The notes under the pieces were generated by a model. The model was not told the DNA's origin. It did not search any database and saw nothing but the letters and a program-made list of their open reading frames with translations. Below, piece after piece: positions 3,541 through 24,691 of a DNA stretch of 24,813 bases. Source of the stretch: a virus; the IMG/VR virus record IMGVR_UViG_3300007346_000217, positions 1-24,813 of that record. One strand, written 5' to 3'. The number at the start of each line of letters is the position of its first letter. The stretch's first letter is position 1. The translations under genes were made by a program, and so were the position numbers.

Positions 3541-4113
3541 TTAATCTCCTTTAGTTGTAGTATTTATCGAGTATTTAAACTCACTGTTTGTCACTGTGTT
3601 AAGTCCAGTATCCACTCTATCTGTGACAAAGAATACGGCTGTGTTTACGCTGTCCAGTGCTTGCTCAATGCCCTGTCTGTGACTGCCTCGTGTGCTTGCT
3701 CTACTGACGTTGTTGTTTTTACGGAATGGATAGTCATATACATTATTACCTGTATCGTCTTCAGGATTGAGTATTCCATTAAAACCAACGCAATATATGT
3801 CTTCACCGGGGTGTAAGTGATGTGCTAGTCCTATAGCAGTGGCACCGGCATTGCCCCATTCACAGGGTAATGTTTGCCAGTAATCCCTTAATTCCTCTGC
3901 TCGTCTGTTTTGTAGATATCTGTCCTTAGTCCAGAAAGGGATATCTGTTTTAGTTGTGTTGTGTTTGTTGATGTAATGTAGTGCTTTTCTGTCAAATATC
4001 ACACAATGATCTAAATCCCAGTTTTCATATGCCCTATTACATCCAATCAATATGTGATTGTCAAGTGGATGCCAATTTAAACTATCTGGGTGATTACCTA
4101 TAACTATAACCAT
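3541..4113 (-). CDS. DUF115/CST-I sialyltransferase-like protein, 190 aa
   Basis: The N-terminus VIVIGNHPDSLN resembles the gNGPSL loop of DUF115 (MptE-like) and CST-I-type glycosyltransferase folds. It is followed by ILIGCNRAY (residues 21-29), a strand ending in D41 (HCVIFDR), and WGNAGATAIGLAHHL plus IYCVGFNG (about 86-113), which matches the family pattern of 'nsG..Al.lA...G...IyllGfD'. Such enzymes move sugar nucleotides or sialic-acid-like sugars. The protein is shorter than typical cellular members and the C-terminal 50 residues are polar and repetitive. A role in glycosylating virions or host surface is inference. AAGGAG and an AATAAATA site precede the start. Confidence 0.45.
   Translation of the reverse strand: MVIVIGNHPDSLNWHPLDNHILIGCNRAYENWDLDHCVIFDRKALHYINKHNTTKTDIPFWTKDRYLQNRRAEELRDYWQTLPCEWGNAGATAIGLAHHLHPGEDIYCVGFNGILNPEDDTGNNVYDYPFRKNNNVSRASTRGSHRQGIEQALDSVNTAVFFVTDRVDTGLNTVTNSEFKYSINTTTKGD
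3561..3568 (-). promoter_or_regulatory. T4-late-promoter-like octamer GATAAATA
   Basis: GATAAATA on the coding strand lies within the last codons of the 190-residue gene, 23 bases before the start of the 130-residue gene. A transcript from it would carry a short leader containing AAGGAG. Confidence 0.4.
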
Positions 4114-4132
4114 CTGATTACTCCTTTTGTTT

Positions 4133-4140
4133 TATTTATT
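4133..4140 (-). promoter_or_regulatory. T4-late-promoter-like octamer AATAAATA
   Basis: AATAAATA lies 19 bases before the start codon at 4113, with AAGGAG between them. The layout is nearly the same as at 3561-3568. Confidence 0.45.
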
Positions 4141-4318
4141 TCATCTTAAACCTCCAAACTTCGTTTAGAGGAAACATCAACTTCATCTGTTATCGCTATC
4201 GCTCTAACATCTTCAGTTGTGTTTAGTTTACTTCGAATCGATTAGATATAAAACATATGATTTATTTGATGTCTGTTAAGACATCGAAGTGATTATATAT
4301 TACCACGAAATTTTAGTC

Positions 4319-4344
4319 ACACTAAGCCTGATTTGGCTTAGTGT
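4319..4344. repeat. Perfect 10-bp inverted repeat with 6-base loop
   Basis: ACACTAAGCC and GGCTTAGTGT are separated by TGATTT. No T tract follows on either strand, so this is not a standard terminator. Direct copies of ATATTACCAC flank it at 4297-4306 and 4353-4362. Confidence 0.7.
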
Positions 4345-4533
4345 AACCTGAAATATTACCACTCATCTCAGTCAATACAGATTAGTCAACCCTTACGGGA
4401 TTAGGTAGGTTTTGCTATCACCTTTTACGACTACACTTGGACGCAGGGTGTGTATGCCTACTGTATAAAACATACACTCCTTCCAGGTTATTAGTGTCAA
4501 TAGAGCCTGGTCACTTTCTTTATTCCTGGGTGG

Positions 4534-4956: not shown

Positions 4957-4974
4957 TCAGTATTATAATACTGA
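4957..4974. promoter_or_regulatory. 18-bp perfect palindrome over the -10 box of P3 (operator candidate)
   Basis: TCAGTATTATAATACTGA is fully self-complementary and is centred on the TATAAT of the promoter at 4962-4990. A dimeric repressor bound here would block RNA polymerase. Its half AGTATTA resembles the AGTGTTA half of the P2 palindrome. Confidence 0.55.
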
Positions 4975-4990
4975 ATATAAAATATGTCAA
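4962..4990 (-). promoter_or_regulatory. Consensus sigma70-type promoter P3
   Basis: On the minus strand TTGACA (4985-4990) and TATAAT (4962-4967) are separated by exactly 17 bases. Both hexamers match the bacterial housekeeping consensus perfectly. The expected start near 4955 leaves a leader of about 50 bases before the 123-residue gene. It overlaps the end of the 51-residue gene region and an 18-bp palindrome. Confidence 0.75.
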
Positions 4991-4992
4991 CA

Positions 4993-5148
4993 CTAACATT
5001 TCTCTAACTCATCAGCGATCTCTACTTTAACACCTAAACTGTCCACTGTGATCCAGTCAAGTCGCTCTTTTAGATCGTCTGGAATGTTTGCTTCAATGTA
5101 TTTGTCATATTCGTATAGTGCCTTCATTACGGCTTCTCTTTGTGTCAT
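4993..5148 (-). CDS. Small acidic phage protein, 51 aa, unknown
   Basis: The ATG at 5148 overlaps the stop of the upstream gene (TAATG), with GGAG seven bases before it. The 51-residue product is charged and helical (MTQREAVMKALYEYDKYIEA) and ends in Lys-Cys; no membrane span. Its coding character is supported by the coupling, the ribosome site and the balanced composition. Function is not recognisable. It would be co-transcribed with the 119-residue gene from P2. Confidence 0.65.
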   Translation of the reverse strand: MTQREAVMKALYEYDKYIEANIPDDLKERLDWITVDSLGVKVEIADELEKC

Positions 5149-5507
5149 TATTTGTCTCCAAAATCAAATAGGTCATGTAAAATTGCGCTTCTAGCGTCAT
5201 ACCTAATATGGCTATTGATAGTGATTAACATTTGATCCCTGTCATCAACTTCTGTCAAAATTGTTGGCATTGAATCACCATGTATTTGAGTTTTGTCCTT
5301 GGGCATTAGTTTAACATCTTTAAGAATAAAACCATGTCCTGCTAAACTACGTTTAACAATATACTGCCAGTTAGTGTAATTTCGCATCGTCGGATCAACA
5401 TATGTATTGTATTCATTACCGTTAAAGTCCATGAATTCGATTTCATAGATTAAGCCACTGTGATGGCGAGATGATGATTTTTTGATGTCTAGAATAAAAA
5501 CTTCCAT
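5148..5507 (-). CDS. Unknown phage protein, 119 aa
   Basis: I place the start at 5507 (MEVFILDIKK), where AGGAG lies seven bases upstream. The frame is open to 5576, but the extra N-terminal codons run through the P2 promoter and a palindrome and lack a ribosome site. The product is soluble, with alternating beta-like segments (SGLIYEIEFMDFNG, NTYVDPTMRNYTNW) that suggest a small alpha/beta or OB-like domain. Nothing catalytic is visible and I do not recognise the family. It is the first gene after P2 and is coupled to the 51-residue gene. Confidence 0.6.
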   Translation of the reverse strand: MEVFILDIKKSSSRHHSGLIYEIEFMDFNGNEYNTYVDPTMRNYTNWQYIVKRSLAGHGFILKDVKLMPKDKTQIHGDSMPTILTEVDDRDQMLITINSHIRYDARSAILHDLFDFGDK

Positions 5508-5535
5508 TGTATTTCTCCTATTTTTAAAAAGTTTT

Positions 5536-5555
5536 AGTGTTACTATAATAACACT
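5536..5555. promoter_or_regulatory. 7-bp inverted repeat overlapping the P2 -10 box (operator candidate)
   Basis: AGTGTTA and TAACACT are perfect inverted halves separated by six bases that hold part of the -10 box of P2. In RNA it could also form a leader hairpin. Confidence 0.5.
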
Positions 5556-5572
5556 TTTATTTATCTTGTCAA
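5545..5572 (-). promoter_or_regulatory. Sigma70-type promoter P2
   Basis: Minus-strand TTGACA (5567-5572) and TATTAT (5545-5550) have a 16-base spacer, 5/6 at -10 and 6/6 at -35. The -10 is embedded in AGTGTTATTATAG, similar to P1 (AGTGTATTATAAG). It lies at the downstream edge of the structured region and would drive the 119- and 51-residue genes. Confidence 0.6.
5558..5565 (-). promoter_or_regulatory. T4-late-promoter-like octamer GATAAATA inside the P2 spacer
   Basis: GATAAATA lies between the -35 and -10 boxes of P2, 50 bases upstream of the start at 5507. If both are used, the same gene would have host-type and late promoters. Confidence 0.35.
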
Positions 5573-5600
5573 GCAAAAAAGCAAGACGTTTTGGTTAAAG

Positions 5601-5700
5601 TGAAGGGATTGTTACGGCCATGAAAAAAATATATTGGATTATATTAGAGTCTCTAAACTTAACGGAGAATAGAGATGCGAAGTTTGTAACAATCCCTTCA
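5601..5700. repeat. 100-bp segment bounded by 15-bp perfect inverted repeats
   Basis: TGAAGGGATTGTTAC at 5601-5615 returns as its exact reverse complement at 5686-5700. No duplicated target site is seen at the edges (AAAG versus ATAT), so a MITE-like insertion is not supported beyond the terminal repeats. Confidence 0.75.
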
Positions 5701-5767
5701 ATATTATTTAGTAAAAGTGGTAGCGTGTATAGCAATGGAGTCCATAAGACTGTGTTTTTTAAGGAGT

Positions 5768-5812
5768 CCCATATTCGGCTGGCCTTGTTTCAGGTAAATT
5801 ACCGAATATGGG
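5768..5812. repeat. 11-bp perfect inverted repeat with 23-base loop
   Basis: CCCATATTCGG (5768-5778) pairs with CCGAATATGGG (5802-5812). It is nested inside the 8-bp pair 5725-5732/5817-5824. Confidence 0.75.
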
Positions 5813-5893
5813 CTGTCTATACACCCAGTGGCTCACTGCCTTGCGGCGTGATCGTCATTTGAAAAGTGGATAACGTTACCAGCGTTACTAAAC

Positions 5894-5901
5894 TATTTAT
5901 A
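5894..5901 (-). promoter_or_regulatory. T4-late-promoter-like octamer TATAAATA
   Basis: An exact TATAAATA lies on the coding strand, just after the -10 box of P1 and at the upstream edge of the structured non-coding region. Confidence 0.4.
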
Positions 5902-5906
5902 CTCTT

Positions 5907-5934
5907 ATAATACACTAAACTGTTGATTTGTCAA
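5907..5934 (-). promoter_or_regulatory. Sigma70-type promoter P1
   Basis: Minus-strand TTGACA (5929-5934) and TATTAT (5907-5912) are separated by 16 bases, embedded in AGTGTATTATAAG; TATAAG at spacing 19 is an alternative -10. The -35 lies in the last codons of the 158-residue gene and within TGTTGATTTGTCAACA (5921-5936), a 6-bp inverted repeat that could be an operator. The transcript would begin with the structured region. Confidence 0.6.
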
Positions 5935-6391
5935 CACTTTTTTTAGGTCTACCAGCACCGGGTTTGTTAGTCCTACCTATACCACTTCCGTGCTGGTAAA
6001 TCCAATCTTCCGGATTTTTACTGCTCATTACTTCAAGCCACTTGCGTGGATCACGTCCCAGTTTACGCTCAATACCACTGACACGGATACCAGCAAAATC
6101 TTTGTTTACACTTATACTTACACAATCACTAAAGTGTTTCCAAGCCTTTAATTCTGAGTGTGTAGCAGTTGTTGCTACTAGATACCAGCCTTTGTGACAT
6201 TCCCTTAATACAAATGGCATCACGATAAAAGCACCGCCCCGACCCACTGGTAAATCTTTTGTTGTTTTAGTGGCAAAAAACCATCTATAGGCTTGATGGC
6301 TATTTCTGCCCTGATAATTAGCATTTAAAAAGTTTTTTAAATATGTCAGAGTCACGGCTGTGCTCGGGGGTCTATAAACTATCTTTCTCAT
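5915..6391 (-). CDS. Unknown phage protein, 158 aa
   Basis: A basic 158-residue soluble protein rich in aromatic residues (AYRWFFATK, KGWYLVATT), with a low-complexity C-terminal tail containing GAGRPKKS, an AT-hook-like basic patch. I do not recognise the family. It follows the fibre gene with 9 bases between stop and start, and AAGG overlapping the fibre stop serves as ribosome site. Genes in this position after a fibre often encode fibre chaperones or receptor-associated proteins, but nothing here proves it. Its last codons hold the -35 of P1. Confidence 0.6.
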   Translation of the reverse strand: MRKIVYRPPSTAVTLTYLKNFLNANYQGRNSHQAYRWFFATKTTKDLPVGRGGAFIVMPFVLRECHKGWYLVATTATHSELKAWKHFSDCVSISVNKDFAGIRVSGIERKLGRDPRKWLEVMSSKNPEDWIYQHGSGIGRTNKPGAGRPKKSVDKSTV

Positions 6392-6400
6392 TGTTATACC

Positions 6401-8122
6401 TTAACTTGCTGTTGTATCGGGATCGTGGCTTAACTTCCAGTTAGTGCCGTCATAGAATACTAGACATTTACCACTGGTTACTGTGCTTTCGTCTGTGACA
6501 TACGCTGTAGCACCTGCGCTAACATTTGTGGGTAGTGTGCTTACTGTGTAACTGGGTAACACAACGGGTTTGTCTGATCTAGTCTCTTTTCCAGTTAACT
6601 TTAATTCATTTAATCTTGTAGTGTCATCATGACTACGCACATCCAGTGCTATACTATTGTCAATTTCTGTGGTGTCATATTCATATGTGATTCTACCAAC
6701 CATTAGATATGATTCACTGTCACTACGCACACCAAATTCCCATTTGCCTTCAACACCATCTGGCACTGTGCTGGCGCCATTATCTAGACTGCTCTGGAAG
6801 AATGCGTGTGCTGTTTCACCATTAAGCACAGCATTCATAATTACATTCTTTTGATAAAAACTAGCATCTGGATTTAGGAATTCTGTTATACCATTTATGT
6901 AGTTGTAGATGTTATTATCACTGGGCCTCATTCTAAAACTTGCTAACTGTGTGACAGTTGCGCCAGTGTCATCTGTTGCGTTAATATCAAACTCTTTATA
7001 TGTGCCATTGTCTCTGGCTGTGTTAGTAATCAACCAGTTTTCTGTGCCACCTGTTGTTTCATGTTTAAAAGCAAGTGTTACACGACGGGTTGTGTTGTTA
7101 GTAATTTTGTTTAGCACTAGGTTTCTTACAGCATTCTGAGCATTACCACTCAAGCCCTGTGTGTTTGTTGCTATTACAGCGCCAATGTCTGTTGAGCCTG
7201 TTGCTGTTGATATGTCAATACTACCTGTGCCAGTAATGCTGTTAGTGTTTAAGTCTAGGTCACCACCCAGTTGTGGAGTTGTATCATCAACTAAATCTGT
7301 CATTAGTGTGCCAGTTTGACCTGGTAGCGTAAGTGTATAATCGCCGCCGCCTGCGGCTGTTAGTGTAGTTGTATCACCATAAATTGGAGGATTAGATGCT
7401 GGGGTTGATGTCTCAAACACAAGATCACCACCACCAAGATTTGTTATAACAATGTCACCATCACTCTCAAATCCAGCCGCCGCAAAGTTTGTATTAGTAA
7501 ATATTTTGTCAATATTAGTGCCAGCAACAGCGTCCTGTGCTTCAAAGTATTTGTCAGCACCACTACTGCCGTCTCTAACGTAAATTCTATTTTCTACTTC
7601 TAAGTCAGTTACATTGTTGATGTCAAATGTCTGTGCGTCTAAATCACCACCCAGTTGAGGTGTTGTGTCGTTTACAATATCAGTAATTCCAGCGGCACTT
7701 GCTTCTAAACTTATAAGCCCTGTTGCGTTATCATAAGTTAAAACATAGTTGTCTTGTCCTGATCCTACTGTTTGATCTACGTCAAATACTAAATTACCTA
7801 ATACAACATTACCTGTGCCATCAGGTGTTAGTGTAATATCGCCATTGCTTGTTGAAATAATACTGTTAGTATTAACATCCAAGTCACCACCCAGTTGTGG
7901 ATTTGTATCCTCAACTACTGCTGTAATACCTGTATCTGTATCGGTGGCTATAACCCAGTTAGCACCATTATATTTTAGAATACTGTTTGTTGTAACACCT
8001 GTGGTGTCTACATCGGCAAGATCATTAATAACAAGATTGCTGATAGATGTGTTTAGTGATGCTACGTCACCTTGGCTACTGCTACTAATTGAGCCGTCTG
8101 CGCCTAGTCTAATAGTTGACAT
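6401..8122 (-). CDS. Tail fibre protein with three internal repeats, 573 aa
   Basis: The repeat (D)TTPQLGGDLD appears at about residues 72-82, 152-162 and 278-288 (DNA 7259-7291, 7641-7675, 7881-7915). Between copies are beta-helix-like strings such as SNGDITLTPDGTGNVVLG. This pattern is typical of fibres in aquatic phages: repeated triple-beta or beta-helical shaft segments with a receptor-binding C-terminal half. The C-terminus ends in a short FYDGTNWK motif common as a trimerisation or tip cap. There is no chaperone/peptidase domain. The product would trimerise at the tail tip and bind the host surface. It follows the J-like gene by 10 bases, with AAGGAG before the ATG. Assignment as fibre is strong, receptor unknown. 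Confidence 0.75.
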   Translation of the reverse strand: MSTIRLGADGSISSSSQGDVASLNTSISNLVINDLADVDTTGVTTNSILKYNGANWVIATDTDTGITAVVEDTNPQLGGDLDVNTNSIISTSNGDITLTPDGTGNVVLGNLVFDVDQTVGSGQDNYVLTYDNATGLISLEASAAGITDIVNDTTPQLGGDLDAQTFDINNVTDLEVENRIYVRDGSSGADKYFEAQDAVAGTNIDKIFTNTNFAAAGFESDGDIVITNLGGGDLVFETSTPASNPPIYGDTTTLTAAGGGDYTLTLPGQTGTLMTDLVDDTTPQLGGDLDLNTNSITGTGSIDISTATGSTDIGAVIATNTQGLSGNAQNAVRNLVLNKITNNTTRRVTLAFKHETTGGTENWLITNTARDNGTYKEFDINATDDTGATVTQLASFRMRPSDNNIYNYINGITEFLNPDASFYQKNVIMNAVLNGETAHAFFQSSLDNGASTVPDGVEGKWEFGVRSDSESYLMVGRITYEYDTTEIDNSIALDVRSHDDTTRLNELKLTGKETRSDKPVVLPSYTVSTLPTNVSAGATAYVTDESTVTSGKCLVFYDGTNWKLSHDPDTTAS

Positions 8123-8132
8123 TCAATTCTCC

Positions 8133-9584
8133 TTAATTATTTTCTAAATACACACTGTCTGGAGCATAGCCTTCGAGGACGACGTCAACAGTGCTGTCTG
8201 GTTGTAGTGTAATACTATTAACACGGAATCTTTCATTTGTCCAATTCGGGACATCATGTGTAATTGTAACTGGATCACCTACTTGTAATTTAAGTGCTTC
8301 GTGCGTTGCTTTAAAACTAACAACAGTCTGATAACGGCTGATATTTAGATAATATGTGCCAATCTTTGTTGCTAGTGTTTTATCACTAATAAGCGGTAAG
8401 TCAAAACTCTTTTCATTTACAATACCGCTATCCTCGCTCAAGTATGTAGCATTTTCAATTAACACACTATCGCCTTGCCAATCCAAATTTGGATTAAAGA
8501 AGTTAACCTTTAACTGGTTGAAGCGTGTTTTCTTGTTGCCCAGACTGATTGTCCATTTACCAATAATGTTGTCTGTATTAAAATTAAACGCACCCGTAAA
8601 TGATTCCTGTTTAACTGGTTGGACGCTGTATTTGCCATTGGTGTAAACTAGGTTAATGTTACCACAACTTAATAATCTTTGTGTGTTATTGTAAATTGTT
8701 TCTGCTGTGCTTAGTGCGCCATTAAACGCTACACCAGCACTAGTTGCCCAGGTGCGAGTAGTTTGGAAACTTGTAATATCAATGTCAGCAGCCGCAATAC
8801 CTTTACCATAACGACTATTTGTGAGATAATCATATATAATGTTTGCTGGGTTACTTAATTCAGCGTCATCACTACTCCAGGTGCCCAGTGCGTTAACTGC
8901 TTGGATCTTTTTACCCTTGACATTTACTGTAATAGTAGGAGCACCAGGATATAAATCTCTGTCATATTTTAAGATAGCGTAGATGTAAGCAACACCATTC
9001 ATTTTATGACTTGATGTCCAGTCTTCACTTCTGTTGAAACTACCAATAGTGTAATCTGGACTTGTGCCGTCTTGGCTATTATTACCCAACCACATTCTTA
9101 ATGTAAGTTTACCGCTATAATCTCCATCGAGACTACCAGTGTTACCTGCCGCACTACCACTCCATACTTCTTTATTGTTAAATTGGACTGCTGTAATATC
9201 TTTGATGCCGTCATCGTTTGCGCCTCTGTTGCCACCCTGTGCTACTGCTAACACAATATGTAGATAGTCATCACCTCCGCTAACGCTGGCAGGGTTAGCG
9301 TTGTTAGTAGTTTCCACATAGACACGAGTGCCACCCAGTCGTCTTTGTCCATATACAACTGGTATGGCGGCGGTGTTGCTAGTTTTGTTAACCAACATTC
9401 CACTGTCTTGGACACCGCCACCGCCTCCCCCTGGCTTGTCTGGTCCTAGGATCGCGCCAACAGCAGCCTGTAGCACAAAACTAAATGCGGTTGCGGCAAA
9501 ACCACTCAAGCCCAATGCGGCTGCGGCATATGGGGCAAAGACCGCGACTGCGATCATCGCAATGGTTTTAAGTGCCTTACCCAT
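8133..9584 (-). CDS. J-like tail tip protein, 483 aa
   Basis: The N-terminus has a hydrophobic Ala-rich stretch (residues 7-48), then a Gly run (six G near residue 53), followed by IPVVYGQRRLGGTRVYVET, a start typical of tail tip/host specificity J-type proteins. Further on lie PGAPTITVNVKGKK and NPANIIYDYLTNSRYGKG (about 217-258), the conserved core of this family (tip hub annulus). At 483 residues it is far shorter than lambda J (about 1130) and lacks fibronectin-like C-terminal repeats, so receptor binding is likely handed to the separate fibre gene downstream. Its position after the NlpC/P60-like gene matches siphophage tail-tip order. It should form the trimeric cone that closes the tail tube and anchors fibres. 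Confidence 0.75.
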   Translation of the reverse strand: MGKALKTIAMIAVAVFAPYAAAALGLSGFAATAFSFVLQAAVGAILGPDKPGGGGGGVQDSGMLVNKTSNTAAIPVVYGQRRLGGTRVYVETTNNANPASVSGGDDYLHIVLAVAQGGNRGANDDGIKDITAVQFNNKEVWSGSAAGNTGSLDGDYSGKLTLRMWLGNNSQDGTSPDYTIGSFNRSEDWTSSHKMNGVAYIYAILKYDRDLYPGAPTITVNVKGKKIQAVNALGTWSSDDAELSNPANIIYDYLTNSRYGKGIAAADIDITSFQTTRTWATSAGVAFNGALSTAETIYNNTQRLLSCGNINLVYTNGKYSVQPVKQESFTGAFNFNTDNIIGKWTISLGNKKTRFNQLKVNFFNPNLDWQGDSVLIENATYLSEDSGIVNEKSFDLPLISDKTLATKIGTYYLNISRYQTVVSFKATHEALKLQVGDPVTITHDVPNWTNERFRVNSITLQPDSTVDVVLEGYAPDSVYLENN

Positions 9585-23957: not shown

Positions 23958-24380
23958 CTATTCTATACCAAGTTGACGGGCCGCTTCTGGTGTAACACTG
24001 AATCCTGTTGCTGATCCATCACGCATAATAGTAACGCCCTCTGGTAAGTTAATGTTTGTTGGTATACTTGCTACCCAAGTTTTGTCAATTGGTATAGGCT
24101 TGCTGTATTTCCAAGTTTTGTTATTTGTAAAAGCAGTATGTTTATCACCACTGCTCAAGAATTGTTTTTTAAGCACATATTTAGGGATCTTGTAAACTAC
24201 AATCTCTTCGCCTTGATGCTTTGCGTGTTTGAGAAATGTAATAATTCTAGCATCTATATCATTACCTGCTAAAAATACAACATTATTGTAAGTATTACCA
24301 CTACCAGGCTGAATGTATCCATCACGTTGGATAGATTCATAGTTTTCTTTAGTAGTGCCGTGATAAAAGAATTTAGGCAT
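23958..24380 (-). CDS. ADP-ribosyltransferase-fold (KptA/ART-like) small protein, 140 aa
   Basis: The start at 24380 overlaps the upstream stop (TAATG) with GGAG eight bases before it; a frame from 24410 is longer but overlaps the upstream gene more and lacks a ribosome site. The product opens with FFYHGTTKENYESIQRDGYI: strand, H-G-T, then a helix and 'GxIxPG', as in KptA/Tpt1 and other ART-fold enzymes that bind NAD or 2'-phosphates. VVFLAGNDIDARIITFLKHA and IVVYKIPKYVL follow, then SKPIPIDKTWVAS, matching the usual 'yxxxIPpxxI'. A clear catalytic Glu is not identifiable by eye. It may modify host proteins or RNA as T4 Alt/Mod do, or act as a toxin. The function is inference. Confidence 0.5.
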   Translation of the reverse strand: MPKFFYHGTTKENYESIQRDGYIQPGSGNTYNNVVFLAGNDIDARIITFLKHAKHQGEEIVVYKIPKYVLKKQFLSSGDKHTAFTNNKTWKYSKPIPIDKTWVASIPTNINLPEGVTIMRDGSATGFSVTPEAARQLGIE

Positions 24381-24691
24381 TACACTGTCTCCTCTAACTC
24401 TACTATACAATTAACGGGTATCACACGCTCTCTGATTATATAATAATCACCGTTGCGTTTGTTTAAGAAGTCACCGTGATTCTCTACTTGTAGTCCGTCA
24501 ACACGGATCTCCAATATAACCAACTGTCGATCTTGTGATTGACAAGCCCGTAAACTACTCAACGGATTATCACAACACCAAATGCCAAGTGGCTTGTCCT
24601 GTTTGTATTTTATGTCATAATAACAGTGGAAACCCGTGTCACGCATTTGGTGTTTGTAGAATTCCAATGGCAATGTGTGATACAATAACAT
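24380..24691 (-). CDS. Second ART-like small protein, 103 aa
   Basis: The ATG at 24691 has GGAGG seven bases upstream and overlaps the previous stop (TGATG); GTG at 24694 is too close to GGAGG. The product begins LLYHTLPLEFYKHQMRDTGF, similar to the strand-H-T-helix-G opening of its downstream neighbour. It continues with GIWCCDNPLSSLRAC, LVILEIRVDG and ends YYIIRERVIPVNCIVELEE, again like the 'y.i...Ippe.i' ending of ART-fold proteins. At 103 residues it is small for an active transferase and could be a minimal or degenerate member. It is translationally coupled to the 140-residue gene. Cys-rich (three near 50-57). Confidence 0.4.
   Translation of the reverse strand: MLLYHTLPLEFYKHQMRDTGFHCYYDIKYKQDKPLGIWCCDNPLSSLRACQSQDRQLVILEIRVDGLQVENHGDFLNKRNGDYYIIRERVIPVNCIVELEETV

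Follow-up and report, generated by a model that had tools for sequence, protein, structure and literature searches.

A candidate structured RNA family between predicted host-type promoters in uncultured phages distantly related to pelagiphages

Here, we describe RNA1, a predicted noncoding RNA located between two promoter-like sites, P1 and P2, in an IMG/VR virus contig of 24,813 nucleotides, the whole of which is referred to as the window. A conserved structured RNA almost certainly exists between these sites. Judged from sequence comparison, RNA1 is a previously undescribed family with a consensus structure backed by compensatory changes, lying outside Rfam 15 in uncultured phages distantly related to pelagiphages, and its consensus structure and model render it searchable elsewhere. 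If transcribed, it would be a standalone noncoding RNA gene in phages with almost no RNA genes described, and its conserved anti-Shine-Dalgarno (anti-SD)-like loop offers a direct test of RNA targeting of translation initiation by phages. Moreover, strong host-type promoter pairs can serve as pointers to unannotated phage RNA genes.

Promoter-like sites in the late region

The portal protein encoded by the contig is ~36% identical to pelagiphage portals, e.g., that of HTVC026P. Upstream of the portal, a 150-aa ORF (23958-24410, minus strand) includes FFYHGTTKENYESIQRDGYIQPG; to the eye this is reminiscent of an ADP-ribosyltransferase-like fold, and a Pfam search yielded no match. In the region from P1 to P3, where the genes read leftward, the original prediction had placed three sigma70-type promoters. 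All three were found there on the minus strand, each with a perfect TTGACA and a spacer within the 16-18 nt of sigma70-type promoters, and P3 with the complete TTGACA-17-TATAAT:

5907..5934, minus strand: P1, TTGACA-16-TATTAT (11/12), predicted promoter of RNA1, overlapping the end of ORF 6391-5915
5545..5572, minus strand: P2, TTGACA-16-TATTAT (11/12) with a TGn extended -10, predicted promoter of ORF 5504-5148
4962..4990, minus strand: P3, TTGACA-17-TATAAT (12/12), predicted promoter of ORF 4905-4534

At standard criteria, no other sigma70-type match in the 24.8-kb record is as good, the next best reaching 10/12. One perfect 12/12 site is present where 0.03 are expected, and with slightly relaxed criteria four sites of at least 11/12 were counted against 1.25 expected, a number reached in 11/300 shuffles. 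The significance of P1 to P3 from the window sequence alone is modest, i.e., slightly over chance. The -10 string described as common to the three sites is mostly the -10 hexamer itself, P2 having a TGn extended -10, and a search for AGTGTTATTATA with up to two mismatches returned 9 matches against 6.1 expected.

Syntenic relatives were gathered via tail-protein and structural-protein searches; direct protein searches with the window genes 5915-6391 and 3541-4113 yielded no relatives, and phage records, when searched at the nucleotide level with either the window region or the RNA of contig L033, gave nothing or weak chance matches. In the relatives reaching the region, the tail fibre is followed by a gene ending at a near-consensus promoter, by 200-500 nt that are mostly noncoding, and by another near-consensus promoter with a small gene after it. 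A near-consensus pair at the positions of P1 and P2 is present in 9/9 syntenic phage sequences. A ranking of every sigma70-like site, whichever its strand, within each relative's sequence placed this flanking pair as the best or joint-best in 8/9 relatives; L040 is the exception, with its two sites within the top four. A counterpart of P3 (TTGACA-16-TATAAT in the same interval) was observed in L033 and L040 only. Because the pair recurs in every syntenic relative, host-type (sigma70) promoters are a well-supported prediction for this late region, as originally proposed; that the boxes are kept in relatives together with the flanking genes likewise favours promoters.

The ORF preceding RNA1 (6391-5915, minus strand) has counterparts in relatives that contain a helix-turn-helix, and the one in L033 matches sigma70 region 4 (E 3.5e-8). 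The window copy aligns in its N-terminal part alone and lacks the helix-turn-helix region of L014 and L017.

A covarying RNA between P1 and P2

The P1-P2 interval comprises ~330 nt and contains no minus-strand ORF. The following elements are predicted for RNA1:

5577..5900, minus strand: RNA1, predicted structured noncoding transcript with estimated ends, its start being put ~7 nt past the -10
5871..5887, minus strand: 5' hairpin, UAACG...CGUUA; a hairpin is found at the same place in other members too
5723..5826, minus strand: conserved core, three-way junction, based on the match to model R2 and covariation
5826-5817 paired with 5732-5723, minus strand: stem A of the core
5812-5768, minus strand: hairpin B of the core
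5752..5766, minus strand: conserved anti-SD-like loop CUCCUU(AAAAAACAC), with CUCCUU in every member
5751-5739, minus strand: hairpin C of the core
5601..5700, minus strand: 3' hairpin, a 15-bp perfect stem UGAAGGGAUUGUUAC/GUAACAAUCCCUUCA, weak as terminator

The core shared by the members reads stem A, GAC(A/C), hairpin B, CUCCUUUCAAA, ACU, hairpin C, CC-AUGC and stem A'. A plus-strand ORF at 5620-5862, antisense to RNA1 and with no family match, was rejected as a protein gene.

RNA1 of the window folds with a z-score of -6.25, and 0/100 shuffles were as good. Comparable values were obtained for L033 (z -7.6) and L017 (z -6.7), and the folds of L026 and L031 were no better than shuffles (z -1.3 and -1.0, respectively). 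Since MAFFT misaligned hairpin B between subtypes, pairs were counted in nine distinct cores with loops hand-trimmed to equal length. Compensatory changes were observed in 14/18 pairs and 94% of the cells pair, and the covariation score of 0.676 compares with 0.015-0.157 for slid partners and 0.21 in shuffles. The untrimmed, model-aligned cores gave the same picture with a covariation of 0.660, obtained from an alignment that is itself fitted to the structure. Moreover, the leave-one-out model R2, which was built without the window, detected the window core 5826-5723 as its sole match with 35.5 bits and an E-value of 8.4e-9, a rough value owing to shortened calibration. The nine distinct cores behind the family model include several that closely resemble one another. 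If the promoter matches were due to chance in AT-rich DNA and the folded stretch were incidental, 11/12 sites barely above expectation in the window would be unsurprising; however, the positional conservation, the covariation and the leave-one-out detection contradict this explanation, which we consider negligibly probable.

Model searches revealed RNA1 in 10 IMG/VR contigs besides the window, among which L017 equals L018 in this region and the core of L033 is the same as that of L040; the members are metagenomic fragments, all from one phage group. A scan of viral contigs with a degenerate pattern, independent of protein homology, returned 11 stretches, 10 of which are true members; the match in L041 was discarded as a chance match inside a coding gene. 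Non-members scored 15.3 bits at most. In the collection of cellular genomes the pattern matched twice, neither match scoring with the model, and a model search revealed no RNA1 in HTVC111P, HTVC026P and DSL-LC06; RNA1 is absent from the isolate phages and cellular genomes searched. Rfam 15, including GOLLD, ROOL, c4, manA and wcaG, gave chance matches far below gathering scores for the window and its relatives, and the matches to caiA, RF_site3 and MIR5048 were dismissed on these grounds. L024/L025 and L028 harbor promoters and a CUCCU-bearing stretch at the same place, unrecognised by the model and folding in L025 with a z-score of -3.9, which may possibly be divergent copies of RNA1.

Terminator-like hairpins ahead of P2 are clear in L021, L033, L040, L014 and L017, and weak in the window, L026, L035 and L027. 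The promoter pair, the conserved RNA between its sites, the hairpin close to the predicted 5' end and the terminator-like hairpins before P2 suggest that RNA1 is an autonomous RNA gene, which we regard as probable. The order of promoter, junction RNA, hairpin and gene, together with a three-way junction containing conserved junction bases and a terminator-like hairpin in several members, would likewise fit a riboswitch-like or attenuator-type leader acting in cis, in which the terminator before P2 controls read-through into the small genes. However, every member has another near-consensus promoter behind the hairpin, and the gene after this promoter belongs to different families, one in the window and L014 and another in six relatives, while RNA1 is retained throughout. 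Because the family of the P2 gene differs between relatives, cis-regulation of one particular gene is disfavoured, and we consider a leader unlikely.

In L027 (11534-11820, plus strand), a short ORF of ~60 aa and, after it, a GGGGGCTTCGGCCCCC hairpin of the GGGGGC-UUCG-GCCCCC type separate P1 from RNA1, which looks like the insertion of a small gene into the RNA unit.

Small genes and palindromes at P2 and P3

The features located at and after P2 and P3 are:

5148..5504, minus strand: 118-aa ORF after P2 with an AGGAG site; its homologue after P2 in L014 has 30% identity
4534..4905, minus strand: 123-aa ORF after P3, without a family match or a counterpart in the examined relatives
5535..5554, minus strand: imperfect palindrome AGTGTTATTATAGTAACACT, 20 bp, at P2, not conserved
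4959..4976, minus strand: palindrome TCAGTATTATAATACTGA at P3, apparently not conserved

The promoter set had been proposed to serve small genes at 5.5-4.5 kb. This holds for P2 and P3, which precede such genes equipped with ribosome-binding sites, and fails for P1, which precedes the noncoding RNA. The genes after P2 and P3 vary among relatives, L027 has the additional short ORF described above, and the stretch does behave as one of accessory, moron-like genes. The product of the P2 gene has no solved relative, and its AlphaFold model was of low confidence (pLDDT 45) and was not used.

A palindrome had further been assigned to each promoter. Those at P2 and P3 match at 9/10 arm positions, a value reached by 8/3000 planted promoters, and exceed chance, whereas the one at P1 is ordinary (7/10 arm positions) and sits at the -35 instead of the -10. 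Half-site, spacing and position all vary among the three palindromes, and 0/18 promoters of relatives contain a palindrome of 9/10 strength. We therefore rejected one operator common to P1, P2 and P3, the palindromes being unlike each other and not conserved, and since they are not conserved a shared repressor is unsupported; a lineage-specific operator may be present at P2 or P3. Thus, the idea of a repressible set of host-type promoters, in which a palindrome-binding protein would allow independent expression of small moron genes, draws on the small variable genes behind P2 and P3 and on the strength of their palindromes, but it encounters the absence of a protein gene after P1, the mutual differences of the palindromes and their lack of equals in the 18 promoters of relatives. 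We consider it decidedly improbable.

Several further elements were noticed in this part of the genomes. Following the P3 gene, the window contains a second structured noncoding stretch (4114-4533, minus strand; z -6.0, and -3.4 against a Markov null), whose counterpart positions in relatives are also noncoding and for which an Rfam search gave no match; GTAAAAGG(A)TGATAGCAAAACC...CGTAAG(G/A)GTTGA is common to the window and L040. In L062 (188-800, plus strand), ~580 nt of noncoding sequence that may relate to this second region lie behind a perfect TTGACA-17-TATAAT. The gene after a P3-like promoter in L061 (5023-5502, plus strand) weakly matches, below the cut-off (E 3e-4), the RNA-polymerase-binding domain of SutA. 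L031 (~6737-6858, minus strand) and L040 (~8040-8160, minus strand) have another leader between P2 and the next gene that starts with ATATATAAATTGTTTAGTA and in L031 closes with ACAATTTATATAT, suggesting a further structured element.

The anti-Shine-Dalgarno-like loop and known RNAs

The most constant stretch of RNA1 outside the stems is CUCCUUUC, present in all members but the window, whose loop CUCCUUAAAA keeps only CUCCUU. This stretch exactly repeats a segment of the anti-SD tail of 16S rRNA, and L026, L027, L031 and L035 extend the identity to CACCUCCUUUC. Fold predictions leave the loop unpaired in the window, L026, L021 and L017 and pair part of it in L031 and L033. Canonical SD sites are in use in these phages, and two of those in the window match its loop over 8 nt. 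Because the complementarity of the loop to SD sites is about that of the 16S rRNA itself, this result does not discriminate; the search for targets by complementarity singled out none, the match being expected of any anti-SD sequence.

We infer transcription of RNA1, the ends and timing of the transcript and SD pairing. Host sigma70 RNA polymerase would start at P1 and generate a structured RNA of roughly 200-400 nt, depending on the phage, whose three-way junction would display a loop that is mostly unpaired and reads CUCCUUUCAAA, or CUCCUUAAAA in the window. The loop would base-pair with SD regions of phage or host mRNAs and thereby adjust translation, while P2, past RNA1, would independently start the small gene that comes next, and P3 would start another variable gene. 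As a whole, this account of an autonomous, host-transcribed phage small RNA pairing with SD regions is put forward tentatively, as plausible but somewhat short of probable.

Conservation extends past the loop to further junction bases (GAC, ACU, CC-AUGC), which suggest a defined three-dimensional fold, as it occurs in protein-binding or ligand-binding RNAs. RNA1 could accordingly be autonomous and act with a protein partner, such as host RNA polymerase, the ribosome, a defence protein or a phage structural protein, the CUCCUUUC loop being a protein-binding or tertiary-contact element instead of a pairing seed. However, the loop would then match the anti-SD by coincidence; we hold this explanation to be possible, though rather unlikely. 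A bolder version of SD pairing, for which we see little likelihood, is that RNA1 mimics the 3' end of 16S rRNA: the host polymerase would produce an anti-SD mounted on a rigid three-way junction, and broad occupancy of SD sites would shift translation in infected cells.

Bacterial trans-acting small RNAs, such as AbcR of alphaproteobacteria, expose a CUCC-type seed complementary to SD sites. RNA1 resembles them in its candidate CU-rich anti-SD seed and differs in being phage-borne, in its covarying three-way junction and in that its pairing is a prediction.

GOLLD and ROOL are large ornate RNAs found in phages and prophages (PMC12286853). Like RNA1, they are phage-encoded structured noncoding RNAs that were recognised by covariation, and GOLLD is also known from marine samples. 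In contrast, RNA1 is the smaller RNA, its three-way-junction core bears the CUCCUUUC loop, Rfam contains no match to it, and no tRNA is located near it in the window or most relatives.

A phage-encoded RNA of the antisense type is c4, from which RNA1 is distinguished by its own flanking promoters, a different core and the lack of an Rfam match. The c4 antisense RNA (RF01695) occurs in phages and Proteobacteria (PMC2864571). Finally, manA and wcaG are structured RNAs of marine metagenomes that are also found in phages, including cyanophages, and both were described as cis elements near apparently regulated genes (PMC2864571), whereas RNA1 is followed by a second promoter and, in different relatives, by unrelated genes.
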